DNA from: Brevibacillus agri | Lineage (GTDB): Bacteria > Bacillota > Bacilli > Brevibacillales > Brevibacillaceae | Assembly: GCF_004117055.1 (NCBI RefSeq) | Contig: NZ_CP026363.1 | Span: 5,132,501 to 5,196,500, forward strand | DNA length: 64,000 nucleotides | Direction: 5' to 3' | Part shown: positions 1 to 22,753 of the stretch, piece by piece | Numbering within the stretch: the first letter of the stretch is position 1 | Layout: each line of letters starts with the position of its first letter | Program-made: the position numbers and the translations under genes | Notes under the pieces: generated by a model | Seen by the model: the letters and a program-made list of their open reading frames with translations, nothing else | Databases searched by the model: none | Told to the model about the DNA's origin: nothing

Positions 1-163
1 GCTTTCCTTCTTCTCCCCTCATAATAAATCCTCTCCCCTGATTTACGAAAAAAGCCGAGGAAAAACAGGAGTGGATACCCGCATCTCGCTCGGCTGGTGG
101 CACGACTATTTAAGCTTTCGTACGACTGTTTATGCTTTGAGATCACTGAAATTGCTTGTTACA
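1..163. repeat. Left copy of a 163-bp direct repeat, island boundary
   Basis: These bases are identical to 22591-22753 at every position I compared. The match ends after base 163 and may extend leftward beyond the window. On the minus strand its first 21 bases equal the last 21 bases of rlmCD including the stop, and the rest is the DNA downstream of rlmCD with its terminator. The copy here is a 3'-end remnant; the intact gene sits at the other copy. This arrangement is typical of an element inserted at the 3' end of a gene. Confidence 0.93.
48..95 (-). terminator. Rho-independent terminator in the left repeat
   Basis: On the minus strand AGCCGAG (95-89) pairs with CTCGGCT (59-53) and is followed by six T. 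It is the duplicate of the rlmCD terminator and could also end transcription arriving from the CD-NTase gene. Confidence 0.6.
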
Positions 164-203
164 TAGTAGGAAAATATTCTGTAAGGGTATAGGAACTTCC
201 CAA

Positions 204-1472
204 TTATTTTATTACGACCTTTACCTCATCACTACACAATAGCGTGCCTCGCCGATACACACGACAAATCATTTTGTGAGTTCCCCGATAAAGTGTTGTT
301 TCCTGTACGTTAAGCCCAGTTTGCGTATGCCCCTTATCTAATCCACATTCATCACCAGTGTTTACTACTTCCCATAATACGGCATCAAAGTCATGGAAAT
401 TTGGAACAGCGTTAAAATAAATCGTTCTGTTTTTCGGGACTCTACCCCCAATGGTCTTTAGATTGATTCGAATGCTTGGTTTCCACTCGACAACAGCTAC
501 GATGTCAACACGATATTGAGAGCTTGCACTTTTTGCAAGAGAACGATTTTCGGCGGTTTCCGTAACAAGCCCTCCCCAATAGGAATGATCAAAAAAGTCA
601 TTCCAAGCTGATATGGCTTGGTCTTCCGTGCATTCATCTTCAAAAAGTACATCTAACTTCTTTATGTAGTTCGTGAGCCGAACACTTAAATTTTTAACCT
701 TTTGTTCATCTTTTGCTGTTAGCAATAAACTTGTGCTGGTGTCAGTTGGATTATTTACTGATTTATCTGTATTCAACCGATCACGAATCTCTTTGATTGT
801 GTAGTAAAATGTTTCGTCGAGACGGTCTTTAGATTGGATGCATTCTTCTACCAAGACCGATTGCACCAACCCTCCTGGCATTAGCCAGCCGCTTCTTGAT
901 TTGCAGAACATCTTTAACAATCGAACAACTTTTCGGATGTTGCCATCAGATTCGGTATTTTTTGTGTTGAACCAATCCGTGATGGATCGAGGATTTCTTA
1001 AACGCCACTGGCTTCCGCAATGTTCATACTCATATTCATCTTCTTCGTTTTTATATCTTCGGTAAATCGCAAAATCGACATGATAGCCGTCTGCATATTC
1101 AACACGAACTGCGTTGGTCAACGCTTCAGGTTCAGTTTTGAATTGCTTACATTTTCTTTTCAAAGCATCTACTACGATATTTTTTACTGAAGTAGTTCTC
1201 TCTGGAATGCTATCTTTATCAAAGACGATGGCAACGTCAATATCATACTCGCTTTGATCATTCTGAGTAATGGTACTCATAGCCATGCTTCCTTGCTCAA
1301 TTATTTCAACAACGGAATAGCTGGTTTCATTTTCAGTATTGTATTCCTGCAATCCAGACTTTAATCGGCTTATATTTAAGTCTTTCTTGTCTCTAAGGTT
1401 GTTCTGCTCATCTCTTGAAAGAACAACATGATCGTTGTAAAAGGTGTTAAATTTAGAGCTTAAATTATACAT
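204..1472 (-). CDS. CBASS cyclic-oligonucleotide synthase (CD-NTase)
   Basis: This 422-residue protein is probably the signal-generating enzyme of a CBASS anti-phage system, making a cyclic oligonucleotide on infection. The nucleotidyltransferase core is visible: GS at residues 61-62, D77 and D79 in YDID, and a third acidic residue D133 in HVDFA, which form the metal site of DNA polymerase beta-like enzymes. The last ~90 residues resemble the C-terminal sensor domain found in many SMODS nucleotidyltransferases. I chose ATG 1472 because AGGGGA lies 8 bases upstream; ATG 1478 is too close. It follows the TM-SAVED gene after about 20 bases, so the two are surely co-transcribed. The product nucleotide cannot be read from sequence. 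Confidence 0.88.
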   Translation of the reverse strand: MYNLSSKFNTFYNDHVVLSRDEQNNLRDKKDLNISRLKSGLQEYNTENETSYSVVEIIEQGSMAMSTITQNDQSEYDIDVAIVFDKDSIPERTTSVKNIVVDALKRKCKQFKTEPEALTNAVRVEYADGYHVDFAIYRRYKNEEDEYEYEHCGSQWRLRNPRSITDWFNTKNTESDGNIRKVVRLLKMFCKSRSGWLMPGGLVQSVLVEECIQSKDRLDETFYYTIKEIRDRLNTDKSVNNPTDTSTSLLLTAKDEQKVKNLSVRLTNYIKKLDVLFEDECTEDQAISAWNDFFDHSYWGGLVTETAENRSLAKSASSQYRVDIVAVVEWKPSIRINLKTIGGRVPKNRTIYFNAVPNFHDFDAVLWEVVNTGDECGLDKGHTQTGLNVQETTLYRGTHKMICRVYRRGTLLCSDEVKVVIK

Positions 1473-1491
1473 GATCATTTCCCCTCTCTTT

Positions 1492-2586
1492 CTATGCCGA
1501 AACTAAAAATGTATCCCTTGTTACTAATGAACCTTTTTGAGTTCCGTTTAATACGATCCCCCAAGGATATTTAATTGTTCGTTGACGATCATATTGGTAC
1601 GATATGATCTGTACCATACGATTGTCATCCATCAGTTTCCCTAATTCAAAAGCCAAGCAACTTTGTCCAGAGTAAAGAAGGTGTATCTTCTTTATATTAG
1701 GGTAAGCTTGCTGTGTATCCATCAACACCATATACACCGCATTGCAATAATCCTTTAGCTGTTCCTTGTACTTGATTGCATAATCCATCGGCTGTGGTAG
1801 TGATAGGTAAATTTTTGGACATGAAAACTGAGCGGTGTCCTCGTCTGTAATTTGAGAAGTTACGCTAACTGCGATAACAATTTCTTCTTCCTGCGTTCCT
1901 CCTAATGAATCCAAGGGAGGATTTTGCACTAATTGAGGATATGGTCTGCTTGTCCAACCTGTTTTACAGTTTGTCAATTCATAGTAGACATCATTTAGTT
2001 TGTTGTATTCAAAATACTCATCTAATACATGTCTTTCAAAAAATTTACCTGCCAACATGATGAATGGAATCGGTGCAATCCCCGTGTAAGCTCTTTTTTT
2101 GTCTCTACTCTCCACTTTAAAAGCTTCGATTTTATCAGATAGCTCTTCTTGTATCTCCTGAGCTATTGCTTCATTGATACCTTTTCGATACAGTCTGATA
2201 AAATCTATTTCTTTTTCCTTAAATTCAAATGGACTCAAATTCAAATCATTTTGATGATGTTCAATTCGTTTGTCAAAATATCCATTGATGTTAAGGATAT
2301 ACATTTTGTTTTTAATGTAGAAATGAAAGTATATTCCTCCAATAAGCAGAATGAACCCAGTAATAAGTTGAAGATAGTTGGTATCCACTTGTTGATTAGA
2401 CAAAAATGCAAACAATTTATCATCGAACGTCCCAAATGATCCAAATATTAACTCGATACCCATTGTAATGAGAAGACCTGAAACAGCTTCTTCTCTTCTT
2501 TTCTTCACAAAGTTATTTATTGCAAAAAATAGCCCCACAATAAATATTAGAACTGAAACAATTGAAAAAATCATTGTTACGCTCAT
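1492..2586 (-). CDS. cap14: TM-SAVED CBASS effector (Cap14-like)
   Basis: The 364-residue protein has three hydrophobic N-terminal segments (about residues 5-25, 37-58 and 72-92), then a cytosolic linker and a C-terminal SAVED domain. SAVED signs are the AVSVTSQI strand near residue 240 and the block IHLLYSGQSCLAFELGKL followed by SYQYDR. SAVED domains bind cyclic oligonucleotides made by the neighbouring CD-NTase; the membrane part is expected to disrupt the inner membrane when activated. The gene has a strong site (GGAGGGGAG) before ATG 2586 and lies immediately upstream of the synthase. Assignment as a Cap14 type is by architecture; I see no Cap2/Cap3-type ancillary genes, so the system would be type I-like. 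Confidence 0.83.
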   Translation of the reverse strand: MSVTMIFSIVSVLIFIVGLFFAINNFVKKRREEAVSGLLITMGIELIFGSFGTFDDKLFAFLSNQQVDTNYLQLITGFILLIGGIYFHFYIKNKMYILNINGYFDKRIEHHQNDLNLSPFEFKEKEIDFIRLYRKGINEAIAQEIQEELSDKIEAFKVESRDKKRAYTGIAPIPFIMLAGKFFERHVLDEYFEYNKLNDVYYELTNCKTGWTSRPYPQLVQNPPLDSLGGTQEEEIVIAVSVTSQITDEDTAQFSCPKIYLSLPQPMDYAIKYKEQLKDYCNAVYMVLMDTQQAYPNIKKIHLLYSGQSCLAFELGKLMDDNRMVQIISYQYDRQRTIKYPWGIVLNGTQKGSLVTRDTFLVSA

Positions 2587-2788
2587 ATAAGCTCCCCTCC
2601 GTCAGTAAATAAACAATTATCTTATTTATCTTATTACCAACTAATTTGAAATAGTATTCGAATCGATTAGATACCTTTCAAAAAGGAATGGTAATAAAAA
2701 ATCAGGTTCACTCCACCTCTTCTCACCTTAATGGTAACTTATAAGCATAACCACATTATAGCACATACGTTCGCGTTTGGTGCTTTAC

Positions 2789-3199
2789 TTACTTTTCTGT
2801 TTTAAATTGAAACTCCCCACACCCCAATTTATCTGCCTGCTCACTTTTGTTTAATTGATTCCAGACTGAATCCGCTTTACTCTTTTCATTCACACCATTT
2901 ATCGTTTGATACTTCTCAATTTCCTCCTTAACTTCCATGTAATGGGTTTTCCTTCCCAAACGTCGAAGAGCTTCTATCGCCGCATCTCTAATCTCTGCCC
3001 CCCTAAGCGGAACTTGCCTTACAATAACTTTATCGCCAGTAAATTTTTCCAACTCGTTTTGAAATGCATTGATTGAAATATCTATTTGCTTTATTTCGAT
3101 CTGGATTGCTTCTAATTTATCCTTTAGTAAATCCCTCTCTCTAACTTTCTCCTGAAGCATTTGACGGATTACCTCTATTTTTTGTTGTTGATTAGTCAT
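2789..3199 (-). CDS. Coiled-coil and winged-helix protein beside CBASS
   Basis: The 136-residue product has a highly charged coiled coil over residues 1-55 and then a small helix-turn-helix-like segment (AAIEALRRLGRKTHYMEVKE, about 75-95), similar in style to HARE/HTH modules found in restriction and toxin systems. It is encoded just upstream of the TM-SAVED gene on the same strand, but 202 bases separate them and a TATAAT sits in the gap (2755-2760), so the effector and synthase may also have their own promoter. It could be a regulator of the defence operon or an accessory factor. No family name is certain. Confidence 0.6.
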   Translation of the reverse strand: MTNQQQKIEVIRQMLQEKVRERDLLKDKLEAIQIEIKQIDISINAFQNELEKFTGDKVIVRQVPLRGAEIRDAAIEALRRLGRKTHYMEVKEEIEKYQTINGVNEKSKADSVWNQLNKSEQADKLGCGEFQFKTEK

Positions 3200-3301
3200 T
3201 TACATTGCCTCTATTCCATCATTTTTTCACTACAATCCCATGCTATTATAGTTACTTCAATAGAAATACTATTTAGAGATCTCTCCAACAGTAGTAGAAC
3301 T

Positions 3302-3526
3302 GTATTTGGCAAACGGAAAATGCAGAGTTTGGCAACGAACGACATTCACGGATATACATGGTTTGACATGGAGCCTCTACAGGCACAATTTCTTGCAAAA
3401 GAGCGAGACAACAGTATTTTACAAGACATGGGAGCCTATTATGCCCGCCTCTCCATGTAAAACCAAATGAATGGCAACTGTATCAAAAACGGTTGCCAAA
3501 CTATGCACTTTTATTTTGCCGTATAC
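3302..3526. repeat. Long imperfect palindrome, hairpin or MITE-like
   Basis: The two halves of this 225-bp stretch are imperfect reverse complements. Paired blocks include GTATTTGGCAAA with the complement of TTTTGCCGTATAC, AGTTTGGCAAC with GTTGCCAAACT, and GGTTTGACATGGAG (3360-3373) with CTCCATGTAAAACC (3451-3464). The inner 105 bp match, in inverted orientation, the hairpin at 5886-5998. It would fold into a long RNA or DNA hairpin. It may be a miniature transposable element or a structured RNA; I saw no coding content that explains it. Confidence 0.65.
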
Positions 3527-3900
3527 ACAGAAAACAAAGAATCTGTCCTTATCTCCTAATACCACGTTTACTTTTCTTAATCCGATGATCACTCCTAACA
3601 AACATATTAAATGCATCCGAATATTAATACGCACCTTCCTTCCAATGTACAGCCTTCAACACTATTGTTCATAGTGATGAGGCGTTCGCCAATTCTTTGA
3701 TCGAGTTGTAAAGCCCCATTCTGAGCCGATAATTCAAAAGGTTCTCCATCCCTTTTAAGAACCTTTTTCTAAATTCCTATTCCGTTGTTTTTCCAGATAT
3801 TGTATCATGTAACCGTAACGATCTCTCCCAAATAAAGACTACCTGCATATAGCTTTTCGAATTATTTTGTAAAGATGATAACTTTCTGAGGAGGCACAGA
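3527..3900. other. AT-rich gap without a convincing gene
   Basis: This stretch between the palindrome and the SUKH gene holds one clear hairpin terminator (3736-3768) and the SUKH ribosome site, TGAGGAGG. A 67-codon plus-strand frame starting at 3471 has no good ribosome site and looks fortuitous. Confidence 0.5.
3736..3768 (+). terminator. Hairpin terminator with no obvious gene
   Basis: AAAAGGTTCT (3736-3745) pairs with AGAACCTTTTT (3758-3768), ending in a T run on the plus strand. No recognisable gene lies just upstream, so it may end a transcript from the palindromic element or a lost gene. Confidence 0.6.
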
Positions 3901-4476
3901 ATGAGCTTTCACAAAGAAAAAAACATTAAAGTAGGGAATATCGTTGAGAAATCATTAAATGGATTGAAAAGTCGCCTCGAAAATGATGGAATTTTATTAA
4001 TCCAAAACGAAGAAGGGTACGTCGAACCGAACAAGTTCTCTTTTAACCCTCCTGCTTCTCTATCTCAAATTAAGCGTTTTAAAGATGAAACTGGCCTAAT
4101 CCTCCCTGCCGATTACCAATCATTTTTATTGCTTCACAATGGAGCACGGCTCTTTGTTCATCCCTATTACGGAGGCGGAGTGGAATTACTGAGTTTAGAA
4201 CAAATGTTAGAGTATAGATTTGACTATTTGCCTGATGGATGTTTTATCATTGCTTATCTTTTCGATGGATGCCAAGTCATTATTGACACCAATAGATATC
4301 AGGAAGGAAATAAAACAAGTTATCTATGGTATCTTGATAGTTGCTGTCCATTCGATGATGCACTGGATTTGCACATGAATTTTGAGTTATGGTTAGATAG
4401 ATTGATTATCGCTCAGGGGTGTGGTTACTGGCATTGGCCATCATCGACTGGTAATTCCTACTACAAGCAACGATAG
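3901..4476 (+). CDS. SMI1/KNR4 (SUKH) family protein
   Basis: The 191-residue product carries a SUKH domain from about residue 45: PASLSQIKRFKDETGL, then LPADYQSFLLLHNGARLF, the glycine-rich GGGVELLSLEQM and a WYLDS strand near residue 142. SUKH proteins are commonly immunity proteins against contact-dependent or secreted toxins, and also occur as solitary genes in defence or polymorphic-toxin islands. No toxin gene is adjacent, so it is an orphan immunity candidate. A strong GAGGAGG lies 8 bases before the ATG. It sits between the palindrome at 3302-3526 and an IS256-family element. Confidence 0.8.
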   Translation: MSFHKEKNIKVGNIVEKSLNGLKSRLENDGILLIQNEEGYVEPNKFSFNPPASLSQIKRFKDETGLILPADYQSFLLLHNGARLFVHPYYGGGVELLSLEQMLEYRFDYLPDGCFIIAYLFDGCQVIIDTNRYQEGNKTSYLWYLDSCCPFDDALDLHMNFELWLDRLIIAQGCGYWHWPSSTGNSYYKQR

Positions 4477-4651
4477 AACCTTGTTTTGTGTGCAACTTAG
4501 TTATTGGAGAATTTCAGGAGATTTATATTTTCTTAAATAGTCCCATCTCAAATTACACAAACCTAAACGCAGACAAAAAAGTACCCTCTAAACGGGACTG
4601 TAAAATATTTTGTGTAAACTCTCATTCCACATTCCATTACAATGAAACAAA

Positions 4652-5884
4652 GTGAGGTTGAGAGAACACATGGGACTCATTCCAAAAGACCAGCTGCGCC
4701 AACTTATCAAAGAACACAACTTGCAAACCATGGAGGATGTTCAAAAAGCCCTGAAGGACATTTTTGCAGAAACACTGCAAGAAATGTTGGAGGCCGAATT
4801 GGATACCGAATTGGGCTATGCCAAGCATGACAGCAAGCAGAAGCAGACGAAAAACAGTCGGAACGGCTATAGCAAAAAAACGGTTACGTCTGAGTATGGG
4901 GAGTTGGATCTCACGATTCCCCGTGATCGTCTTGGAGAATTTGAACCTGCGATTGTCAAGAAACACCAGAGACATGTAACGGGTATTGAAGATCAAATCG
5001 TCTCTATGTACGCCAAAGGCATGAGCACACGGGATATTCAGGATCATTTGCACAATCTGTATGGACTTGAGGTATCCCCGACCCTTATCTCCAACGTAAC
5101 AGCTAAACTGTTACCTCTTATCAAGGAATGGCAAAATCGCCCGCTGCAAAGCGTGTATTCCGTTGTTTTCATGGATGCCATTCATTTTAAGGTAAAACAG
5201 GACGGGCAAATTATCAGCAAAGCCGCCTATATGGTCATTGGCATTGATTTGGAAGGCTATAAGGACGTTCTTGGCATCTGGATCGGAGAAAACGAGTCAG
5301 CCAAGTTCTGGCTACATGTGTTGACGGATCTGAAAAATCGTGGCGTTCAGGACATTTTGATTATCTGTGTAGACAATTTAAAAGGCTTCAGCGAAGCCAT
5401 TGCAGCCAGCTATCCGCAAACGGAGGTTCAAAAATGTATCATCCACCAGATCCGCAATTCCATCAAATATGTGTCGTACAAGGATTTGAAGAAGATTACT
5501 ACGGCCTTGCGTCCGATCTATACGGCCCCAACGGAAGAGGCGGCTCTCCTGGAATTGGATCAATTTGAGGAGACCTGGGGAAAACAGTATCCCCTGATTG
5601 TCCGGTCGTGGCGGAGTAACTGGGATGAACTGGCGACCTTTTTCAAGTACTCCCCTGAGTTGCGCAAGCTCATCTATACAACGAATATGATCGAAAGCTA
5701 CCATCGACAACTCCGGAAGGTGACAAAGGGAAAAAGTATCTTTCCGACGGATGAATCGCTACTCAAAATGCTATATTTGGCGACGATGGATGTCATTCGG
5801 AAGTGGACAGGGCGGGTCCAAAATTGGGGGCAAATCCTTCTCCAGTTGACTGTACATTTCCCAGAACGGGTACAGATTCGATGA
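4652..5884 (+). CDS. IS256-family transposase
   Basis: The 410-residue protein is a mutator-type DDE transposase. Visible features are the first Asp in VVFMDAIHFKV, the second in IICVDNLKGF, the HQIRNS motif and the catalytic Glu in NMIESYHRQLRKVTKGK. N-terminal helices with LRQLIKEHNLQTMEDVQKAL are typical of the DNA-binding part. Length is close to the usual ~390-410, and no frame break is seen, so the enzyme may be active. An internal ATG at 4670 (MGLIPKDQ) is an alternative start. Confidence 0.93.
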   Translation: MRLREHMGLIPKDQLRQLIKEHNLQTMEDVQKALKDIFAETLQEMLEAELDTELGYAKHDSKQKQTKNSRNGYSKKTVTSEYGELDLTIPRDRLGEFEPAIVKKHQRHVTGIEDQIVSMYAKGMSTRDIQDHLHNLYGLEVSPTLISNVTAKLLPLIKEWQNRPLQSVYSVVFMDAIHFKVKQDGQIISKAAYMVIGIDLEGYKDVLGIWIGENESAKFWLHVLTDLKNRGVQDILIICVDNLKGFSEAIAASYPQTEVQKCIIHQIRNSIKYVSYKDLKKITTALRPIYTAPTEEAALLELDQFEETWGKQYPLIVRSWRSNWDELATFFKYSPELRKLIYTTNMIESYHRQLRKVTKGKSIFPTDESLLKMLYLATMDVIRKWTGRVQNWGQILLQLTVHFPERVQIR

Positions 5885-5885
5885 A

Positions 5886-5998
5886 GGGCTTTACATGGAG
5901 GGGCGGGCATGATAGGCTACTTTGCCTTGCGATGGTGTGAACTTCTCCATCGCCCAATCGCAAGAACTCATGCCCGCCAGTGGCTCCATGTCAAGCCC
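5886..5998. repeat. 113-bp hairpin element inside the IS256 right end
   Basis: The arms GGGCTTTACATGGAG (5886-5900) and CTCCATGTCAAGCCC (5984-5998) pair, followed inside by GGCGGGCATGA with TCATGCCCGCC and a central stem CTTGCGAT with ATCGCAAG. The same arm sequences occur in inverted orientation at 3360-3464. The hairpin begins two bases past the transposase stop and ends 24 bases before the IS right inverted repeat, so it looks inserted or captured. Confidence 0.7.
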
Positions 5999-6056
5999 GA
6001 CATATGAAGCATCGTTTTCACGTTTACACAAAAATCTTGACAGACTCATCCTTCCC

Positions 6057-6578
6057 TTACATCTGCTTTTTATTGGTAATAAGCCCTGACTCCCGTAACT
6101 TTTTCATCAAAATACAAACGTATCCTTGTGAAATACCCAATTCTTTTGCCAATTCCACTTGAGATGCTTTCGGATTTACCAGGAACGCCTCATGTAGCTG
6201 ATTCAGTAACTCGGCAGATTTGTTTCCTTTATGTTTTTTCCTCTTCTTTGTATCCATGACGGGCTCAGAGATTATAATCTCATTATGTTCGGTAATAATG
6301 CTCCTATCCCCTGCGTCCACCTCCGATGATGGCACTATTTCTCCTATGCATGTATGGCAAACCAAATATTTTTTGAAGTACACCATTTCATCGCTAAACT
6401 GACCACAAAATATACAAGTGTTCCCTTGATATTTTTTCAGGATGATCGTTTCGTTTTCTGTATCAATGAAAATTTCTAAAGGATCTTTGATCTGGACATC
6501 GAGTACATCACGAAGTTCCTTTGGTATAACGACCCTTCCAAGTTCGTCCACTTGTCTGACAATTCCAATGCTTTTCAA
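6057..6578 (-). CDS. AbrB-like regulator with zinc ribbon and HTH
   Basis: The 173-residue protein begins with a SpoVT/AbrB swapped-hairpin DNA-binding domain (IVRQVDELGRVVIPKELRD, residues 6-24). Two CxxC pairs (CIFCG near 55 and CHTC near 74) follow and suggest a zinc ribbon. The C-terminus has an HTH, ASQVELAKELGISQGYVCIL. It is likely a transition-state type transcription regulator. The start is TTG at 6578 with GGGGGA 6 bases upstream. Its stop lies 10 bases beyond the IS256 end, so the insertion came close to truncating it; the C-terminus could have been altered. Confidence 0.8.
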   Translation of the reverse strand: MKSIGIVRQVDELGRVVIPKELRDVLDVQIKDPLEIFIDTENETIILKKYQGNTCIFCGQFSDEMVYFKKYLVCHTCIGEIVPSSEVDAGDRSIITEHNEIIISEPVMDTKKRKKHKGNKSAELLNQLHEAFLVNPKASQVELAKELGISQGYVCILMKKLRESGLITNKKQM

Positions 6579-6660
6579 GAAAAGTCCCCCAATTCCAAAC
6601 TGCTCTTTCCCACAACATCTACGATTACCACTATTTTACTTGTCATGTTTCCATTACTCA

Positions 6661-6698
6661 ATAAAAACAAAAGACCAGAGGAGTCACTCCACTGATCT
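6661..6698 (-). terminator. Terminator of the XRE regulator gene
   Basis: On the minus strand AGATCAGTGGAGT (6698-6686) pairs with ACTCCTCTGGTCT (6684-6672), followed by TTTGTTTTT. It lies 15 bases after the regulator stop. Confidence 0.7.
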
Positions 6699-6712
6699 AC
6701 TTTGCCCAGGAA

Positions 6713-6967
6713 TTAGTCATCAGATAAATGATGCGTTTCACGGTTATGTTCATATTCTTCTTCCACTTCTCGTATCAAATCTGATGGCTTTATTTGAAGT
6801 GCATAGCATAAAGCAAAGACGGTGTTTATGGTGGGCTTCCTAATTCCACGCTCTACTTCCGATAGAAAGCTTCTGTCAATATCAGCGTTTAGTGCCAAGT
6901 CTTCCTGTGACAGTTTCCGATTCTTTCTATGGTTGCGTAATATCTCACCAAAAATGTTCTCAATCAA
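6713..6967 (-). CDS. XRE-family HTH transcriptional regulator
   Basis: The 84-residue protein is a compact lambda-repressor-type regulator with HTH residues LSQEDLALNADIDRSFLSEVERG and PTINTVFALCYAL. I place the start at TTG 6967 because AAGGAGT sits 6 bases upstream; the upstream ATG at 6991 has no ribosome site. A perfect 14-bp palindrome (7019-7032) lies in the divergent region with the GGDEF gene and is a likely operator. It probably represses itself and perhaps the diverging operon. Confidence 0.85.
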   Translation of the reverse strand: MIENIFGEILRNHRKNRKLSQEDLALNADIDRSFLSEVERGIRKPTINTVFALCYALQIKPSDLIREVEEEYEHNRETHHLSDD

Positions 6968-7018
6968 GGTTTTACTCCTTTTTGAGAACATTAGAAGATA
7001 AACTACACCACAACTCTA

Positions 7019-7032
7019 TAGGCTATAGCCTA
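7019..7032. promoter_or_regulatory. Perfect palindrome, candidate operator
   Basis: TAGGCTATAGCCTA is a perfect 14-bp inverted repeat between the divergent XRE and GGDEF genes. A second perfect palindrome, ATTTCATGAAAT, lies at 7045-7056. Either is a good binding site candidate for the adjacent XRE regulator. Confidence 0.55.
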
Positions 7033-7132
7033 CAAAACCAATTTATTTCATGAAATCCCCATCCATTTGTGCTATTATGCTTTATAGCAATGCTAAATTA
7101 TACCTTCTTTAGTAAAATAGGCGGGATTCAGC

Positions 7133-7783: not shown

Positions 7784-7836
7784 AAAATAGTTCGCTTGTC
7801 CCTTTCTATTTAACCACCAAAATGGAGGTATGGAGG

Positions 7837-8040
7837 ATGAATCAAAATCAGAACATCCGTGATGTAAAGCTAATCAATAAGGCAGGGAAAACAGGGCTGA
7901 CAAGAGAGGAAAAGGAGATCATGAAGCAGATGAAAGGGTCTGTTACATCTCCTTTTGATCTTGACTCGATCCGTGAGCGGATAAAATACGGTGATCAGGA
8001 GGAAAGCAGGGATTGGAAGGCAGAAAACAGAACGGAGTAG
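7837..8040 (+). CDS. Small charged protein of unknown function
   Basis: I place the start at ATG 7837, 7 bases after GGAGGT, giving 67 residues. The longer frame begins upstream inside the GGDEF gene and lacks a site. The product is hydrophilic, with LTREEKEIMKQMKG in the middle and an acidic, basic-rich tail. I recognise no family. It follows the GGDEF gene after about 50 bases and is probably co-transcribed. Confidence 0.6.
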   Translation: MNQNQNIRDVKLINKAGKTGLTREEKEIMKQMKGSVTSPFDLDSIRERIKYGDQEESRDWKAENRTE

Positions 8041-8097
8041 GATTTCGATAAGGGGATATTTCCTCAGCTCTGTTACACGAAAGGTAGGTGGTACTTC

Positions 8098-9584: not shown

Positions 9585-9617
9585 AGCGGCTAAGATTTCA
9601 TCTCGATAGTTTTTTGA

Positions 9618-14612: not shown

Positions 14613-14761
14613 AGAAGTCCCCTCCTGTTTTTTTGAACTTCTATGTCTTATGCGGAAGGGCAGGGAAAAATAAATCATGTACTTTGAAGGAAACTGCGTA
14701 TGCTGGAAAAGGAAGCATTCACATCCTTGAAGAACCCATCATGAAAGGAGTTGGAACCTTA

Positions 14762-15748
14762 ATGAATAACGTAAGCAACACAGGACGAATCATGAAAATA
14801 AGAGAAATCTTATTTAACCATACGGATGAAAATCACGAACTATCTATCTTGGAAATCATAGACCATCTAAAAATTCACTTCGGAAGCGATTACAAAGTCT
14901 CGAAAAATACTGTAAGAAGTACAATTCAAGAACTACGAGAATGCGGATTCAGCATCGAGGAAAGCGTTAAGGACAATAACACCGTTTTCTATAGTCACCA
15001 GTATCGAAAATTTGAAACTCATGAGCTTAGAATGCTAATTGATGCGGTATCATCTGCCAGATTCATCACTTCTGATGAGTCAAAACAGCTCATCGAAAAA
15101 ATAAAAACTTTATCAAGCAAACATCTGGCAAAAAAGCTTCATCATCAGATTTCAGTCGATCCAGCAATCAGAGCACAAAATAAAGAAGTACGATATCATA
15201 TCGACAAAATCCATACATCCATCATCGAGCAAAAAATGCTTCATTTCCAATATGGAAATTTCAATATCAAAAAGGAATTTGTGCTTCGGCATCACGGTAA
15301 ACTTTATACAGTTATTCCATTGGGATTGGTATGGAATCACGACTACTACTATCTCGTAGCAAAGAATCCCCAGGAGAATAAAATCAAACATTATCGGGTT
15401 GACCGAATGAAAAATGTGTCTGTCTCTGAAGAGAGATTTATCGGAACAGACTTTTCAATCTCCGACCATATGAAACAAACATTTAATATGTATCCTGGAA
15501 ATGTCGAATATGTTGAAATTCTGTTCGACAATCACCTTGTTAATGTGGTAATTGACCGTTTTGGAAAAGATGTCTCCATTCGAAGTGTCGATGATCGGAC
15601 TTTTTCGATCAAGATTAAAGCCGCTATTAGCGAAGGCTTTATTCGCTGGTTACTTATGTGGGGAAGTGATGCGAAAGTAATCTCACCTCAGCACCTTGTT
15701 GAAAAAATAAAGGCTGAAGCTGAAAAAATGAACAAACTCTATTCTTGA
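14762..15748 (+). CDS. WYL-domain transcriptional regulator
   Basis: The 328-residue protein has an N-terminal winged helix (MKIREILFNH to TVRSTIQELRECGFSI), a central linker and a WYL domain with the core KLYTVIPLGLVWNHDYYYLVA and HYRVDRM near residue 220. A C-terminal WCX-like extension follows. WYL regulators often repress defence systems (BrxR, CapW) and sense nucleic acid or nucleotide ligands. Here it is about 11 kb from the CBASS genes, so a direct CapW role is unproven. I chose ATG 14762 behind GAAAGGAG. Confidence 0.82.
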   Translation: MNNVSNTGRIMKIREILFNHTDENHELSILEIIDHLKIHFGSDYKVSKNTVRSTIQELRECGFSIEESVKDNNTVFYSHQYRKFETHELRMLIDAVSSARFITSDESKQLIEKIKTLSSKHLAKKLHHQISVDPAIRAQNKEVRYHIDKIHTSIIEQKMLHFQYGNFNIKKEFVLRHHGKLYTVIPLGLVWNHDYYYLVAKNPQENKIKHYRVDRMKNVSVSEERFIGTDFSISDHMKQTFNMYPGNVEYVEILFDNHLVNVVIDRFGKDVSIRSVDDRTFSIKIKAAISEGFIRWLLMWGSDAKVISPQHLVEKIKAEAEKMNKLYS

Positions 15749-15856
15749 GGGATCTTTGCAGATGCCTCATTTTTCTTATAAAAAGAAGCGATCAAATTTT
15801 TTACCACTGTTCTGGTAATATGAAACCATAAAGAACATGTAGCGGAGGTGTCATGA

Positions 15857-16856
15857 ATGATTGCAAAATGGCTGAAGGAATCAAGATATACCGTAATTTT
15901 TTCGGGTGCAGGCATGAGTACGGAAAGTGGGGTTCCCGACTTTCGATCCCAAAGTGGACTTTGGCATGGAAAAGACCCTCAATCCTTAGCCAGTGTGGAA
16001 GCGATGAAATATAACCAGAAAGAATTCATTGATTTTTATCGCATGAGGATTCAAACATTGCAAAACGTCAAACCTCACATTGGATATCGTATTTTGTCAT
16101 CCTGGGGACAACAGTTTCAAGTAAAATCCATCATTACGCAAAACACGGATGGATTGCATGAACAAGCAGGAAACATTAATGTCATCCCCCTGCACGGGAC
16201 AATTGTGAATGCTAATCAAAAAGTTGACCATTTTTGGAGCAAACGCTCATCTTCGAGTTGACCACCTACGATGCTTTTTTTCACACAAAGTAGCATTTTA
16301 TTTCCTGCACCAAGGATCGTCAAGGATAAAGGGTAAACCCCTTGCTACGCAAGCCCTTGACGATCCTTGGCTCAGTAAAAACATTTGCAATTAGGTGTGA
16401 AAATGATGACGTGTGCTCAAACTGTCAGGTGGGTAACTTTATGATGAGCAAAGTGGTCAACATTTTGGTGAGCGTTCACAGACAATTCAAAAATTGCACT
16501 GCCATTCATGCGGGACTATGTACTCAACAGACCGATACGTTGAAAATCATTTGTACTGTACGTGTGGTGGGTTTATCCGCCCCTCTGTCGTGTTGTTTGG
16601 AGAGTCATTAGACCCCCACATGTTAGCGGCGGCAGAGAAAGAGACAAAACAATCCGATTTGTTTATTGTTCTTGGCTCTTCACTGGTTGTCTCTCCTGCT
16701 AACTCATTTCCAATGATCGCAAAAGAACACGGTGCAAGAGTGGTAATTATCAATCACGATCCGACTCCCTTAGACTCTATCGCTGATGCTGTAATAAACA
16801 ACCGAAATATCGGTGAAGTATTGAGACTCATTACCGAGGAGTTGTCACTGAACTAA
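15857..16856 (+). pseudogene. Sirtuin (Sir2/CobB-like deacylase) split by a MITE
   Basis: The 5' part encodes the NAD-binding start VIFSGAGMSTESGVPDFRS, then ITQNTDGLHEQAG and IPLHGTI; the 3' part resumes with LHCHSCGTMY, a second CxC and VLGSSLVVSPA. The two are separated by a 277-bp insertion (16204-16480) with a 6-bp target duplication. Removing the insertion and one duplicate gives a continuous frame, PLHGTIQKLHCHSCG, of about 238 residues, close to normal CobB length. As it stands the gene cannot make the full enzyme. Whether the ancestor was a housekeeping deacylase or a defence sirtuin is unknown. Confidence 0.9.
16204..16480. mobile_element. 277-bp MITE, IS21-like ends, inside the sirtuin gene
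   Basis: The ends are inverted repeats of about 27 bp. The left starts TGTGAATGCT, the right (complement) TGTGAACGCT, and both continue to CAAAA then GTTGACCA. The 6-bp GACAAT flanks both sides (16198-16203 and 16481-16486), a target duplication. GTTGACCA also recurs at 16257, giving the multiple-repeat end structure seen in IS21-family elements. Inside is a perfect 16-bp stem, 16310-16325 with 16355-16370. No coding capacity is present, so it must be moved in trans. Confidence 0.85.
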
Positions 16857-16943
16857 AAAACCCAACTTGGTGATTAATTATTTGATCGGGTCCCTTGATA
16901 CTTTTTGGTGGAAGACATAAAACGGAAAGGGTGGGGGTGGCTT

Positions 16944-17336
16944 ATGATTTGGATCCTATTCCTATTTATTCTGTTCTTATACCTTTTGTTGAGGCAAGGA
17001 AATCAAGCAGTTGATAAATCCTCCTATGTACCAAATCCAAACGGACATTGGGTTAATAAGGGTACGGATTTAGATGAAGAATGGGCATGGTGGGGGCCAG
17101 AAACCAATAAGATATCCTTGTATGTGAGTGTCCTTGAAGAAGATGGAGGTTATAAAATTCTCATTAACGATGAATCTCCAAAAAACGCAATTGATTTCAT
17201 GGATTGCGATGACAAACGAGAAGCAGAGATAGCCGTATCGGTTTTAACTATTTACTATACCGCATTTGGCAATGTTACCGTTTCAGATCTCGTCGGGGTA
17301 GATATCAATAAAAATTTGAATGGAGAATGTATATGA
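16944..17336 (+). CDS. Single-pass membrane protein of unknown function
   Basis: The 130-residue product begins with a strongly hydrophobic stretch (MIWILFLFILFLYLLL) that is a membrane anchor or uncleaved signal, followed by a soluble domain with EWAWWGPE and FMDCDDKREAEIAVSVL. I chose ATG 16944 behind a G-rich site; a GTG at 16905 is possible. No family is recognised. It overlaps or abuts the next gene and opens a four-gene operon of unknown proteins. Confidence 0.6.
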   Translation: MIWILFLFILFLYLLLRQGNQAVDKSSYVPNPNGHWVNKGTDLDEEWAWWGPETNKISLYVSVLEEDGGYKILINDESPKNAIDFMDCDDKREAEIAVSVLTIYYTAFGNVTVSDLVGVDINKNLNGECI

Positions 17337-18655
17337 ACCAACCAAGAGCATATGGAACATTCATCAAACGTGGAGATCATACTTATCGAACAACAGCTTA
17401 CATCCAGTGGGGGCAGTCTGAGATGTCTATTGGGGCATGTCTTTTGCTTAACCCAGGATCAGCCGATTTCAATAAAATCAATCCTGACTTGATAGAAAAG
17501 CTGAATATATCATTCAAAGCGGAAGGTGAAATAACTCCTGATCCGACAATGGATCAATTAATCCTTTTGGTTGAAGAAATCTATGGCAAAGATAAGCCCG
17601 TGTCGGGAAGGTTCCATATTTACAACCTTTTCAATCTTCAAAACTCCAAGTCTACGAACGCCGTCGATCAGTTTGAATCTCTCGTCACTTCAGGAGAGTA
17701 TGACATCACTGCATCATTGATTTCACTACAAGAATTACAAATGCATCCCTGGCTACTTCTCGGTTGGGGCGTTGATCACAAAGCAGGTTGGAAGAACCTT
17801 AAACGTATTAAGGAAAAATGGCTAAGCTTAATCGGTCAATCAAAGGTTCCTACTTTCGGAAAAAAACATAAGGATTCCAATAATTATTATCATCCTTGCC
17901 CTCTTATCCCTACTCACCGACCAACAATGTTGAACGAACTGCTCTCGTTATATAAACAAAAATTCGGCAAGCAACGTTTTCCAGTCTACGCAACGAAACC
18001 AAACCTGTTTGTAGATTCTCAACCTGTTGAAGAATGTGATGATTTTGATTTTGGCTGGTTCAGAACTGCCGCCAATCCAGAATCCATAGTAAGGGCATTT
18101 TCCCATCTTCGGATCAAAGAGGGATATAAATTAAGGGCTTATCAGTATACGGACGGAGCAAATGGAAACGGAATCGTTTGGGCTTTACCAGTCGATACTG
18201 AACTTCCAGACCCAAATGAGTGCCAACGTTTAGAAGAGCATTTCCTATCTGCACCGAAACCCTCCTTTGCATTAGCCGATTTCATGCAAGCCATCGATGG
18301 CGACCGAACCCCTTTATCATATTTGCAAGCATCCATCGTGTTTCATGAACTTCATGAGTTTGGTGCGATGTGGCACGGAACCTCATGGGGGAGAGATATA
18401 ATCTTACCACTGACGGATGATCAAAAATCACATTATGGCCATTATGAATGGGAAATGATTGAGGATGAACCCGAAATCATTGAGCCTCACTTTTATTACG
18501 ATGTTGAAGGTAATCCTGTCATTGTCTTCCACACCATAAATGATATCGGAACCACAACCTTTAATCGTTATGTTCATACCTTTAGTAAAAATGACTATAC
18601 AGCACATGTTGAACGAACCTGTATCGCAACCGCAGGTGGTGGAATTATCTTCTAA
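17333..18655 (+). CDS. DUF1643-like N-terminal domain with a novel C-terminal domain
   Basis: This 440-residue protein starts at ATG 17333, 7 bases after GGAG, overlapping the previous stop. The N-terminal ~200 residues have the DUF1643 layout: ACLLLNPGSAD early, YNLFNLQNS, then LLGWGVDH. DUF1643 proteins are usually ~160-200 residues and unassigned. The C-terminal ~230 residues (FGWFRTAANPESIV, WHGTSWGRDIILPL, HVERTCIATAGG) match nothing I know. It is the main protein of the operon 16944-19529. The fusion of an apparent DUF1643 core to a new domain is unusual. Confidence 0.65.
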   Translation: MNQPRAYGTFIKRGDHTYRTTAYIQWGQSEMSIGACLLLNPGSADFNKINPDLIEKLNISFKAEGEITPDPTMDQLILLVEEIYGKDKPVSGRFHIYNLFNLQNSKSTNAVDQFESLVTSGEYDITASLISLQELQMHPWLLLGWGVDHKAGWKNLKRIKEKWLSLIGQSKVPTFGKKHKDSNNYYHPCPLIPTHRPTMLNELLSLYKQKFGKQRFPVYATKPNLFVDSQPVEECDDFDFGWFRTAANPESIVRAFSHLRIKEGYKLRAYQYTDGANGNGIVWALPVDTELPDPNECQRLEEHFLSAPKPSFALADFMQAIDGDRTPLSYLQASIVFHELHEFGAMWHGTSWGRDIILPLTDDQKSHYGHYEWEMIEDEPEIIEPHFYYDVEGNPVIVFHTINDIGTTTFNRYVHTFSKNDYTAHVERTCIATAGGGIIF

Positions 18656-18667
18656 AGAGGTGAACGT

Positions 18668-19177
18668 ATGATTGAATTTACCCATAAGAGCGGGCACGGT
18701 CAAATTGAGCTAATTGAGGATGGAAGCGTTCGATTTAATATGATGGGAGATGATCATCTTCTCCAGACGTTACAATTAGAGTTTTCGAAAGGCATTCCTT
18801 CATTAAAGGCATTTCAACAGAAAGGTATACCTGGGAAAATGAGAGGGTATAGGAAGATCGAGAGGACAGAGGATCTCCTTACTCTACTTAAATCGTTTCA
18901 GGAGCACTATCCCCAATTTGATATCATGATCAAGCATAAAGTTGATAGTCAAGAATTCAAAAAGAGGTACACCCTACTGAAGTGGAATGGGGAATATGGA
19001 GCTGATGCCATCTTTATCGTCAGGGATAATTGGAAGGCAAAACAAAGCTTGTTTACACCAGGTCGATGTGAAGATTTGTTTTGGTTTCATGCAGATTTGG
19101 CAAATGATCCGTCTGTTTCAAGTTGGGAAGATTTTGGCGAGGAAAGTTTTGACGATTTAGAACCGATCGCTTTTTAA
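18668..19177 (+). CDS. Unknown protein, third gene of the operon
   Basis: The 169-residue product follows the DUF1643-like gene by 12 bases and has AGAGGTG before the ATG. It is soluble and acidic, with IEDGSVRFNMMGDDHLLQTLQL, KKRYTLLKWNGEYGADAIFIV and FWFHADLANDPSVSSWEDFG. No family is recognised. Tight spacing argues for joint function with its neighbours. Confidence 0.65.
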   Translation: MIEFTHKSGHGQIELIEDGSVRFNMMGDDHLLQTLQLEFSKGIPSLKAFQQKGIPGKMRGYRKIERTEDLLTLLKSFQEHYPQFDIMIKHKVDSQEFKKRYTLLKWNGEYGADAIFIVRDNWKAKQSLFTPGRCEDLFWFHADLANDPSVSSWEDFGEESFDDLEPIAF

Positions 19178-19190
19178 TGGGGATGATGGA

Positions 19191-19529
19191 ATGCGACAGT
19201 ATTGGGAAGATATTATCGTGCTTTCTGGTGAAGGTGGCAGAATCACTTTAATCGGTTCAAAAACATCAAACGGATCATGGATTTTCAAAAAGCAAACTGA
19301 CGAAACTGCTTTAGCTGACTTTTTCGATGATGAAGATTTGTCTCTACTTGTCCATCAACAATCAAGCTTTGTAACTGGTTTGGATCAAGTATTCACACTA
19401 TTGGGGCGTTTTTGGTTTAGATTACGCCCCCTCTACATTCATCCTGAGTTCAAAAAGCTGATTTGGGAAACAGTTGCTCCAAAAATCGAGGCTCACCAAT
19501 TAAGGTATTGGGAAAAGGTCATTCAATAA
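19191..19529 (+). CDS. Unknown protein, fourth gene of the operon
   Basis: The 112-residue product starts 13 bases after the previous stop. Visible text: WEDIIVLSGEGGRITLIGSK, then acidic FFDDEDL and the aromatic FTLLGRFWFRLRPLYIHPEF. It resembles small hypothetical proteins but I cannot name a family. It ends the operon. Confidence 0.6.
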   Translation: MRQYWEDIIVLSGEGGRITLIGSKTSNGSWIFKKQTDETALADFFDDEDLSLLVHQQSSFVTGLDQVFTLLGRFWFRLRPLYIHPEFKKLIWETVAPKIEAHQLRYWEKVIQ

Positions 19530-19594
19530 TTCAGTACAATATTCAGCTTTTTCCTTTCAAACTGAGACATACTATTATTCACGGATCCTAATCA

Positions 19595-20098
19595 TCACTT
19601 TTGATCAACGTCTCGCTTTGCGATACTTACGGCTTCGAAATATAAATGCCTCATCTCATCCTCTTGATTCTCTGGACACATTTCTTTAAACCAATCTTCT
19701 TCCATGTACTCTTCTTTAAATATAATGGGTCTCCAGAGTGATAATCCGAGTTCTGGAAAAAAGTATGTGTAACCTAACTCCCAATGATTCCGATCATATT
19801 CTGAAATACGATCAATGCGGGTTACCAAGTCATCTGCTTTTGTATTGAATACATCGATATCATAAAATAAGCAGTTGAATTCATCCTTTAAGGACGATGG
19901 AATTTCAATAAAGTCAACTCTTCTATTCGCATCATACTCTACCCTGAATACATTCTTAAAATAATTTCGAGTATGGTATTCCTTTTGGTATTTCCTTGCG
20001 TATTCTTGAATGCAGGCTTCCACTTCATCCTTGCTCATACCGATTTTAATCGTACCAATTGCACCTGGTTCTATGATTAAGTTATCCACCATCATCAT
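19595..20098 (-). CDS. Uncharacterised protein, possible immunity type
   Basis: The 167-residue product opens with VDNLIIEPGAIGTIKIGMSKDEVEACI, a beta-hairpin plus helix pattern seen in several small immunity-like or lipoprotein families. The remainder is acidic and rich in aromatics (WELGYTYFFPELGLSLWRP). I cannot assign a family. It lies 17 bases after the stop of the wHTH-nuclease gene and is likely co-transcribed with it. Confidence 0.5.
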   Translation of the reverse strand: MMMVDNLIIEPGAIGTIKIGMSKDEVEACIQEYARKYQKEYHTRNYFKNVFRVEYDANRRVDFIEIPSSLKDEFNCLFYDIDVFNTKADDLVTRIDRISEYDRNHWELGYTYFFPELGLSLWRPIIFKEEYMEEDWFKEMCPENQEDEMRHLYFEAVSIAKRDVDQK

Positions 20099-20115
20099 CC
20101 TTACATATTAATCTT

Positions 20116-20742
20116 CTATGAAACCTCTTCTATTCCCCCATTCTCGTCTATGAATACCGCTGTAATTCTTGTCCTCTTCTTAGCCAATAGAGGAAACTTG
20201 CCCCATAGATTACGAAACTGCTTTACATCGGGTAATGCTATGCTGTATTTTGCATTTGGATCATCCATTCTTTGAAGTGTTTCTGCCAAGACCCCCAAGA
20301 AGTAGTTTACGTTCATTGGATTAGAAGACCCTAAGCCTTTAACTTCAATGATCCACCTTTCCGTACCTCTATACGCATTGATGTCAATTCCAGGAGTTTT
20401 CCCCCATGCTATCTGCGTCTCCCAATCATTCGATTGTAGATGTTTTTTCAGTATCTCTTTTAAGTTATCCTCTGCAAAAACAGAAGCATCCTTTTCCAAG
20501 TTCTCAGGCTTATGACTCATAATCGGTTCAGTTTTTGGTCTGTCAGAAACGATGTAATTTCCCAATAATCCGTCATTTCTATTAATTCTTTTGATTATCC
20601 CTTTCGCTTCCAAAGATCTGCATGCCTGATTGACAGACTGTTGTGGCATTCCTTTCCCTAACAGTAAATCGGTAATTTCTCTATCTGTTAAGCCCTCTCG
20701 GTCGCTTAATATATCAATGATTTTATCTTTTAAGGTTTTCAC
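20116..20742 (-). CDS. wHTH protein with PD-(D/E)XK nuclease-like domain
   Basis: The 208-residue protein has an N-terminal winged helix (LKDKIIDILSDREGLTDREI to LEAKGIIKRI, residues 4-52), a linker and a C-terminal domain with the pattern GIDINAYRGTERWIIEVKG. The D and ExK residues fit the active site of a PD-(D/E)XK nuclease. The end (KKRTRITAVFIDENGGI) completes an alpha/beta fold. It could be a restriction-like or repair nuclease that recognises DNA by its winged helix. It has the small unknown gene 19595-20098 downstream as a possible partner. Confidence 0.6.
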   Translation of the reverse strand: MKTLKDKIIDILSDREGLTDREITDLLLGKGMPQQSVNQACRSLEAKGIIKRINRNDGLLGNYIVSDRPKTEPIMSHKPENLEKDASVFAEDNLKEILKKHLQSNDWETQIAWGKTPGIDINAYRGTERWIIEVKGLGSSNPMNVNYFLGVLAETLQRMDDPNAKYSIALPDVKQFRNLWGKFPLLAKKRTRITAVFIDENGGIEEVS

Positions 20743-20833
20743 TGAACATTCTCCTCATGTTATTCTTTTCTGCTTATTTTACACTTTTTTTCAAGATCTT
20801 CGATACCGAGACAATTCCACACCCCTACTCAAT

Positions 20834-20881
20834 TGAAAAACCGAGGAAAAATAGGAGTGGATACCTGATTTCGCTCGGCTC
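20834..20881. repeat. Third, partial copy of the island-end repeat
   Basis: This 48-bp stretch matches positions 47-95 with a few substitutions and short gaps. It shares CCGAGGAAAAA, AGGAGTGGATACC and TCGCTCGGCT. The inverted arms survive (AACCGAG with CTCGGCT, one G-T pair), so it keeps the terminator shape on the minus strand. Confidence 0.7.
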
Positions 20882-21414
20882 GTAACATTTGTTCCAATTG
20901 CATAGATAAGTTACTTTAAAAAGATTGTCTAAAAAACCTCTTTGTTTCTTCGCTCTTTTTGATTTACTTGGCAATATTGCAATTCGCATTGACGACAGGC
21001 AATCTGTAGATTATACATAGTCTTCGCAAGACAGTATGTATCCAATTTTATATGGTGTACGAAAGACGCATTCACTTAACGCCTACGCTTTTGAAATTTA
21101 ACAAAATCAGCCTGGTGTGCTACCTCTAAAAACATTTGAGTATAGCACAAGCATTCTGAGCAATATGACAAATGGGATTACACCGAATACAGAGAGCGAA
21201 TAATCCTGCACTTTAATACGATAATTAATTAAAGTCAATCAACAAACATTAACAAAGTGATTATACTTCTTCGAAATATGAACAATCTCCAGCATGTTTT
21301 GTGTTCAAACAGTTCAGATAGACCTGAACACCTCGTTTTGCAGGTTTTTGAATGTTTATAGCCATTTTTTTGCGGTTTCAACCAGTTAATATTGCTGTAT
21401 TACCCGAATTTCTT

Positions 21415-21945
21415 TAGCGAAGGCGTTTAGTGAATTCCTTTTCGCAATGATATTGCCAACTTCACTTTACGACATTGAAGCCCATTAGTTACTGGATCAA
21501 TACTCTCCAGGTTGCTAAAACTCAGCGATATTGCGACATTCCTTTGCGATTTGTGATGCGATTCCACCAAGCGAAACTTTTGATCGCTAATATAAAGGTA
21601 TATGTATTCCGAAAGTTGCAAACTCCCCTTTATGTTTTTTCAATAGACCAGTGATTCTGCTGTATCACCAATGATTTTCAGCGAAGGCGTTTAGTGAATT
21701 CCATTACGCAATGGTTTTGCAATCCCATCTGGCGACATTGCAACCGATTAGATTTTGGATCAATATCTTCAATGATGATGAACCCCAGCGATATTGTGGC
21801 ACTGCTTTGTGCGATGTCAAGCGGATTCCACCGAGCAACACTTTTATCGCTATATAAAGGAATTATGTATTCCGAAAGTTGCTGAAACACCATCATGAGC
21901 CTTCTTCATCAGACCAGTGATTTTGCGGCATCACCAATGTGTTCA
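21415..21945. repeat. Two degenerate ~264-bp tandem repeats
   Basis: Copy A begins near 21415 and copy B near 21679, a period of 264 bp. Shared blocks include GAAGGCGTTTAGTGAATTCC, CAGCGATATTG and ATGTATTCCGAAAGTTGC. A shorter similar block (21390-21414 region) precedes copy A, and a truncated third start ends near 21950. On the minus strand each copy keeps an open frame (64 and 72 codons) that shares QLSEYI, LYSD and LQCR, so they may be decayed paralogous small genes. Confidence 0.7.
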
Positions 21946-22590
21946 GAGCAGGGGAAATATAGAGTCAAGCATTGAGGCTTGAATAATCGAGAAACGATTG
22001 AAAAGGGCATTGTGGCGGCTTGAGAAAAGCGATTGTTGTGTGCCTTTCCGAGTTACTTGAGAGGCATACAGGAGCAAATGACGGGCGTAGTGAGAGTTTT
22101 ATAAGTGGAGCTATGTAGTGTCTCGATCCGCCGCTCGCTTATCAGTTTACTTTATTGAGGCTACACTCGCTGAAGAGGAGCATAATTGTTCACTTCGCCC
22201 TCTCTGCTTCCGTAAGGAAGCAACCCTTTCCCCATTGCAACCAGACTCGTTCAAGTCCAAAATTTGCTTTTACAATCCCTACTATGTCAAAAGCAAAAAT
22301 AGTCATCTTACGCCCCGCCCATCTCCCCCACTGCCACTCCCGCTTACAGCCCCAAGGCTTCTCAGCCTTTTCTCCTCCATCATCCCAATTTTTTCCTGCA
22401 ATTAATGTCGTGATAAGAAACGAGTAAAAATCGAGTTCAGGACGAGCAAAATCGGGGGCAAAAAAGCAATTAAAGTCGAACGAAGAGCAGGGGAAAAAAC
22501 AGGAAGAGCCTGGGGATAGGACCAAAGATTATCGGAGAAAATGATCGAGAAAAAACAGGAGAAAAATGTTCGAAGTCCTTGCCCCACAAG

Positions 22591-22753
22591 GCTTTCCTTC
22601 TTCTCCCCTCATAATAAATCCTCTCCCCTGATTTACGAAAAAAGCCGAGGAAAAACAGGAGTGGATACCCGCATCTCGCTCGGCTGGTGGCACGACTATT
22701 TAAGCTTTCGTACGACTGTTTATGCTTTGAGATCACTGAAATTGCTTGTTACA
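22591..22753. repeat. Right copy of the 163-bp direct repeat
   Basis: It is identical to positions 1-163 and includes the 3' end of the intact rlmCD gene plus its terminator. This is the presumed chromosomal attachment side of the island. Confidence 0.93.
22638..22685 (-). terminator. Terminator of rlmCD
   Basis: AGCCGAG (22685-22679) pairs with CTCGGCT (22649-22643) on the minus strand and six T follow. The loop is long (29 bases), so strength is uncertain. Confidence 0.6.

Follow-up and report, generated by a model that had tools for sequence, protein, structure and literature searches.

How does a defence island in which no recombinase is recognised come to lie between two perfect repeats at the 3′ end of rlmCD, a 23S rRNA methyltransferase gene? 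The question is raised by a 64,000-nt stretch of the Brevibacillus agri genome (hereafter the window; contig NZ_CP026363.1, here C1, positions 5,132,501 to 5,196,500), in which bases 1-163 equal bases 22591-22753 exactly. Coordinates are those of the window (base 1 = C1:5132501), with negative numbers for positions left of its edge. The initial annotation of this DNA had reported the 163-bp repeat and likened the island to the staphylococcal cassette chromosome (SCC) elements, which in staphylococci are inserted at the 3′ end of another rRNA methyltransferase gene, rlmH. Our analysis replaces this reading with a pair of Tn7-type mini-elements at a second attachment site. We consider it quite probable that the repeats are two copies of a non-autonomous Tn7-like mini-element, placed at the 3′ end of rlmCD by TnsABC and a TniQ/TnsD-type selector acting in trans.

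The exact 163-bp match (identity ends at base 163) was confirmed by comparison within the window, and both copies were recovered by a genome search. The DNA beyond the window edge extends the repeat by a further 306 bp to the left, to 469 bp identical at 469 of 469 positions. Copy 1 lies at -305..163 (C1:5132195-5132663), with only its right third (1..163, + strand) inside the window, and copy 2 is complete at 22285..22753 (C1:5154785-5155253, + strand), starting with TGTCAAAAGC and ending with GCTTGTTACA. Identity stops beyond these limits, so the left copy is not the start of a long duplication of the rlmCD region, the outcome that would have told against a mobile element. A perfect match of 469 bp at a distance of 22.6 kb is far beyond chance. 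Segmental duplication or an assembly artefact would also leave two identical copies, but the genome is a single contig (5.37 Mb, completeness 100%), and a 72%-identical full-length relative, copies in other genomes and a matching pair of outer ACCCT flanks make such an origin next to negligible.

The repeat, which we call mini-element A, is gene-less, and its two ends are imperfect inverted repeats of the form TGT...ACA. A matrix scan of the repeated core found three spaced left sites and three right sites per copy. In copy 2, the left sites L1 (22290..22307), L2 (22395..22412, 105 bp from L1) and L3 (22463..22480, 68 bp from L2) lie on the + strand, and are followed by a conserved hairpin, AGCCGAG...CTCGGCT (22643..22685, + strand), and by the right sites R3 (22691..22708), R2 (22711..22728) and R1 (22731..22748) on the - strand, each 20 bp from the one before; the visible part of copy 1 holds the hairpin and the right-end sites at 101, 121 and 141. 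The corresponding spacings are 106, 68, 20 and 20 in a 72%-identical full copy elsewhere in the same genome (C1:236384-236875) and in a 77%-identical copy in genome G021, and 104, 68, 20 and 20 in a complete unit in G147, while in G085 the right sites (20 and 20) and L3/L2 (68) are present. The matrices were built with sites of these same copies included, so that the constant spacing, rather than the site matches, counts as evidence. As a control, a shuffled version of the 124-kb region yielded zero three-site clusters, and a low-score three-site cluster in G016 is regarded as chance. Asymmetric arrays of this kind recall Tn7, whose left sites are spaced and right sites packed (excerpts of PMC11406308). 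The element is also short, occurs in more than one copy and is flanked by a target duplication (see below), as is usual for miniature inverted-repeat transposable elements (MITEs). By its sequence, the repeat is a mini-element that carries no gene and in which a left and a right end, laid out as in Tn7-like elements, are fused. A structured RNA was also considered and rejected: among nine loci there were two matches, both below threshold and to unrelated families.

How this element sits in rlmCD (22733-24184, - strand; closest named relative Brevibacillus gelatini, locus L116, 97%) can be read from its flanks. The pentamer ACCCT flanks both outermost ends, directly left of copy 1 (-310..-306) and directly right of copy 2 (22754..22758, + strand), whereas two random 5-mers from the region agree with a chance of 0.0013. 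The current rlmCD frame ends NLKGCNKQFQ*, and joining the outer flanks at a single ACCCT changes this to NLKGVDKQ*. The left flank is itself a mini-element, B, of 294 bp (-603..-310, TGTACAG...TCTACA), and taking A out brings CCCTT to both of its sides. With B taken out as well, an rlmCD tail NLKGASN* is restored, followed by a perfect terminator hairpin, AAGGGAGCC-AGTAACTA-GGCTCCCTT; at the Brevibacillus loci L128 and L130 the rlmCD tails end RKGA*, followed by GGCTCCCTTTT. A 78% relative of B lies at the rlmCD tail of G008, and the G021 copy of A carries ACTAT on both flanks, so that 5-bp duplications are seen for A, B and the G021 copy. A and B read as two distinct mini-elements, B the older, that inserted one base apart at the same spot and each made a 5-bp duplication of its own. 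The repeat does cover the last 21 bp of rlmCD (22733-22753), as had been claimed, but it does not carry the gene's own 3′ end: these 21 bp are element-derived and have replaced the original tail, and an attachment core copied from rlmCD is rejected on the same ground. Among the Brevibacillus loci L116-L130 and L162, the C-terminal tail of RlmCD after FPHTGHVE varies between most loci, as expected of a heavily used insertion site.

The position of the ends relative to rlmCD is nearly constant. Counted from the HVE codon of rlmCD, the TGT end comes 26 nt downstream for B, 27 for A, 28 in G021 and 26 in G008/L055, and in Paenibacillus 28 nt in P. cellulositrophicus (L135) and 27 in Paenibacillus sp. 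XY044 (L194). Mini-elements or solo ends of the 469-bp family also lie after the glmS stop codon, at 24 nt in G147, 26 in G085, 24 in G088 and 26 in the B. agri genome, where the terminal T of the end is changed to C. Elements with relatives of TnsA, TnsB, TnsC and TniQ in order lie 23 (G187), 24 (G032) and 25 nt (G014) after the same stop codon, the TGT next to the site array having been taken by eye as their end. By comparison, the insertion point of Tn7 is ~20 bp downstream of the glmS stop codon and ~25 bp away from the TnsD site (excerpts of PMC2918618). Fixed distances past a conserved coding 3′ end, 26-28 nt at rlmCD and 24-26 nt at glmS, indicate that rlmCD behaves like a second attTn7. 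A periodicity test on 75 distinct rlmCD tails (29 further loci had no anchor motif and the rest were duplicates) placed the ends described here at six of the nine top scores; L173, L167 and L126 scored equally high with no recognised end, and at L141 and L120 a correctly placed TGT is not accompanied by a high score, so that periodicity at rlmCD tails appears only suggestive.

The excerpts of the literature searched hold no report of a Tn7-type element at rlmCD, though Tn7-like elements and rumA co-occur in Proteus papers, and a survey of Tn7 target selectors names no methyltransferase in its available sections (PMC10293859). Another rRNA methylase gene, rsmJ, is the attachment site of some CRISPR-associated Tn7-like elements (excerpts of PMC11406308). 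At glmS, tandem ends of the family of A are stacked in G088 (C1:2170250-2171480), including a 254-bp direct repeat. A right end in G127 (from C1:2292544, ahead of glnA) is close to what looks, by eye, like a decayed copy of the glmS tail, possibly a decoy attachment site.

Following the Tn7 model, TnsABC with a TniQ/TnsD-type selector, supplied in trans, would act on A; the selector would direct it to a fixed distance downstream of the conserved rlmCD 3′ coding sequence, as Tn7 is directed at glmS, and A would land 1 bp from B, which was already there. Another molecule, bearing the island together with one mini-element, could then cointegrate or recombine at the rlmCD copy. The 469-bp query matched 11/26 genomes of the genus and 14/39 of an order-level set, most rows being the hairpin alone; these 45-71-bp hairpin matches were excluded from the element counts, leaving copies above 400 bp in the B. 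agri genome (three) and G021 (one) and in no other genome of those sets. The right end was matched in 21/398 genomes of the class. TniQ was detected in 6/26 and Mu-transpos_C in 8/26 genomes of the genus, B. agri being among neither, and among 11 genomes with such ends three have TniQ (G026, G032 and G187). On the G187 contig, part of the right end is matched at 79% at a distance of 16.5 kb from the TniQ gene. G127 carries a 104-aa fragment of a TniQ relative (C1:2291866-2292165) ~0.26 kb inward from a right end of the family, although the TniQ profile gave no match there.

Several results weigh against this scheme. The B. agri genome has 0 matches to TniQ, 0 to Mu-transpos_C and one to TnsA, which is fragmented, with no relatives of the remaining G001 Tns proteins reported around it; mobility would thus need help in trans or homologous recombination. 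No autonomous element sharing the site sequence was found: the site sequence here differs from that of the fetched complete Tn7-like elements, the fetched tns regions have no two sites of this family 19-22 bp apart, G187 has only two weak site pairs (scores 7.9-9.8), and the right ends in G187, G032 and G014 carry other sites. Relatives of the G001 Tns proteins were likewise not found in the 80 named rlmCD loci (up to 6 kb downstream of each), and TnsA, TnsB, TnsC and TniQ/TnsD, as an autonomous element would carry, are not recognised in the 26 island proteins scanned. Matching 5-bp flanks are lacking at the full copy at C1:236384, in G147 and in G085, and, by eye, at the G008 relative of B. 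The island is absent from B. gelatini, as the check for empty sites in relatives proposed earlier would have it, but that site is not empty to the base: DNA matching -971 to -4025 maps ~2.1 kb after rlmCD, beyond 2.1 kb of different DNA and with no match to the island. The base-exact empty site therefore rests on the duplications and the restored terminator, not on B. gelatini. Finally, the inner flanks, TAGTAGG right of copy 1 (163/164) and CCTACTA left of copy 2 (22284/22285), are mutually inverted and are not accounted for by the model; a palindromic target, ATCCCTACTAGTAGGGAT, was considered for them as a candidate only.

By which route did the island come to lie between two copies? The initial annotation had listed both a composite island and homologous recombination, and these are also our two best routes; both predict the outer ACCCT pair. 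The route we favour, though with no better than an even chance, is that a lone mini-element at rlmCD received a circle carrying the same mini-element and the island, by RecA-dependent recombination or through a cointegrate (replicative transposition). This directly yields the 469/469 identity together with the outer ACCCT, and the inner flanks would then be donor flanks, TACTA/TAGTA, alike at 4 of 5 positions. Tn7-related transposons without TnsA do form cointegrates (excerpts of PMC11406308). Against it, no replication, relaxase or integrase gene is recognised in the 26 scanned island proteins, and TAGTAGG is also found after right ends elsewhere, so that a simple donor duplication does not explain it.

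Somewhat less probably, two near-identical mini-elements already flanked the block elsewhere and its outermost ends moved the whole to rlmCD in one step as a composite transposon. The arrangement has that form, with cargo between the copies and the duplication outside the outer ends, where ACCCT is not matched by the inner flanks; moreover, a junction of right end, (T/C)AGTAGG and a cyclic oligonucleotide-based antiphage signalling system (CBASS) is also found in G127, so that this junction can move as one unit. However, the copies here match perfectly and the genome has no other close copy (the next full copy is 72% identical), which suggests one copying event, not two independent insertions, and tilts the choice from the composite to cointegration or recombination.

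The same junction raises a different idea, cassette-like exchange, in which right ends would be addresses for swapping defence modules and TAGTAGGGAT would mark module starts. The TAGTAGGGA-type sequence recurs just after right ends at window 163/164, at C1:236875 and at two places in G127 (C1:2285705 and C1:2288514, followed by CAGTAGG and TAGTAGG, one end being truncated), and CBASS comes next in 2/4. A strict pattern search of 398 genomes nevertheless found two places only, both already known, and ordinary tandem insertion and recombination could produce the same junctions, so we hold such exchange to be improbable. It is tempting to speculate more broadly, though we doubt that it will prove right, that in Bacilli gene-less Tn7-type mini-elements pile up at glmS and rlmCD, their ends serving as addresses for the capture of defence modules and their exchange between bacterial families, with no transposase in the island, and with rlmCD served by a TnsD-type selector of its own.

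The parallel with SCC, and more generally an SCC-like island or an integrative and conjugative element (ICE) moved by a serine recombinase at rlmCD, has some claim to attention, since rumA is a known target of serine integrases in streptococcal ICEs (excerpts of PMC4701971), Listeria prophages sit between rlmCD and fosX (excerpts of PMC8386393), and a motif scan of the 80 named loci found six candidate large serine recombinases. Those adjoining rlmCD in L128, L130, L157 and L177 are Pfam-confirmed, as is one in G021, which lies beside the mini-element at a separated rlmCD tail, 69 kb from rlmCD. The ~69-kb segment between rlmCD and that tail (G021 C1:770200-839200) is probably an ICE or prophage in rlmCD that has shifted the mini-element away. 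At the locus studied here, by contrast, the annotation had noted no recombinase between the copies, and we likewise recognised no integrase and no serine or tyrosine recombinase (Resolvase and Recombinase domains included) in the 26 Pfam-scanned island proteins, not every open reading frame having been scanned. Its suggestion that one lies beyond the left edge found no support, as none was recognised in 16 scanned proteins of the left 28 kb, the remaining genome not being searched for recombinases. The transposases seen are of Mutator/IS256 type (4652-5884) and, as a fragment, of IS4/5 type (-2647..-2255). With a repeat of 469 bp, transposon ends and an outer 5-bp duplication, movement by a serine recombinase is most unlikely and is rejected for this locus, while it is real at other rlmCD loci. 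A plasmid or phage origin was also set aside: neither the 22.1-kb island, compared by megablast with plasmids and phages, nor the 469 bp, compared by blastn with plasmids, had a match.

Among known systems, there is a close likeness to Tn7 and Tn7-like elements, in the TGT...ACA ends, the spaced left and packed right sites, the 5-bp duplication, and a right end that points towards the target gene at a fixed distance from its conserved coding 3′ end; the element here differs in lacking tns genes and in targeting rlmCD besides glmS. SCC elements, too, insert where a gene for an rRNA methyltransferase ends, but the gene here is not rlmH, the ends are of transposon type and no ccr recombinase is recognised. 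In ICEs and prophages at rumA/rlmCD the same gene has its 3′ part altered by insertion; the rumA ICEs differ in their serine integrase, direct repeats of 2-21 bp and a reciprocal exchange involving the integrase gene (excerpts of PMC4701971). The Tn7-like element of Bacillus cereus ATCC 10987 is said, in the available part of PMC8725734, to help move neighbouring genomic islands, and so likewise has Tn7-type machinery proposed to mobilise islands in Bacilli, but it is autonomous, whereas the bounding mini-elements here are gene-less.

Cargo between two identical mini-elements also recalls the MITE-bounded class 1 integrons of Acinetobacter, reportedly described by Gillings in 2009 and Domingues in 2013. 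The cargo here consists of defence genes instead, and to our knowledge those integrons are not of an rlmCD- or glmS-directed Tn7 type. The B. agri locus offers a concrete route by which defence islands without a recognisable recombinase could move, by gene-less Tn7-type ends at safe gene tails that would be driven in trans. The gene rlmCD, already known to be used by serine integrases, is thereby added to the insertion places of Tn7-type ends, and an rlmCD selector becomes something that can be searched for. Such islands would escape any search for Tn7-like elements that begins with the tns genes.

The island itself (164..22284; 22,121 bp) is AT-rich and rich in defence and mobile genes, in agreement with the earlier description, with 4-kb bins at 37-41% GC across 1-20000 and at 57% across 24001-36000. 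It begins with the CBASS (204..2586, - strand; CD-NTase 204-1478 and 2TM-SAVED effector 1492-2586, by Pfam and PADLOC), followed by a SUKH protein (3901-4476), the Mutator/IS256-type transposase (4652..5884, + strand; PF00872, E 1.3e-121), a UvrD-family helicase with GajB-like matches (11894..14167, - strand), a WYL regulator (14633..15748, + strand) and a split sir2 (15857..16856, + strand; halves of PF02146). Other genes encode regulators, a GGDEF protein, a Nudix protein and a phosphoesterase. G009 has relatives of 11007-11684, 14244-15748 and 15857-19529 (tblastn to L225; L064), and the block ends there in a right end, and the CBASS with its preceding right end is collinear in G127, from another family. 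Since these modules have relatives in G009 and G127, some of them beside Tn7-like ends, we interpret the island as a cargo mosaic. A decayed copy of the right-end hairpin (20839..20880, + strand; 88% match to repeat positions 356-404) probably derives from a G009-like cargo element, as a vestige of its right end. CBASS, sirtuin and UvrD/Gabija genes are known cargo of Tn7-like elements (excerpts of PMC8649781).

Further observations concern other sequences in and around the island. The sir2 gene is interrupted at 16204-16482 by a repeat of 279 bp identical to C1:5090174-5090452, comprising ~277 bp from TGTGAATGC to GTTCACA, with apparent 6-bp duplications by eye (GACAAT; GAAGAC); this represents a different mini-element family, and the sir2 relative in G009 is unsplit. 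A 208-aa protein (20116-20742) has no Pfam match and shows, by eye, a winged-helix-like start and a nuclease-like IEVKG motif; its 72% relative in G088 (near C1:2168702) likewise lies just inside a right end. Left of the window, a type I-C CRISPR-Cas operon occupies -27494 to -19684 (Cas1, Cas4, Cas7 and Csd1/Cas8c by Pfam, Cas5 and Cas3 by eye), the last part of which is also found downstream of rlmCD in B. gelatini.

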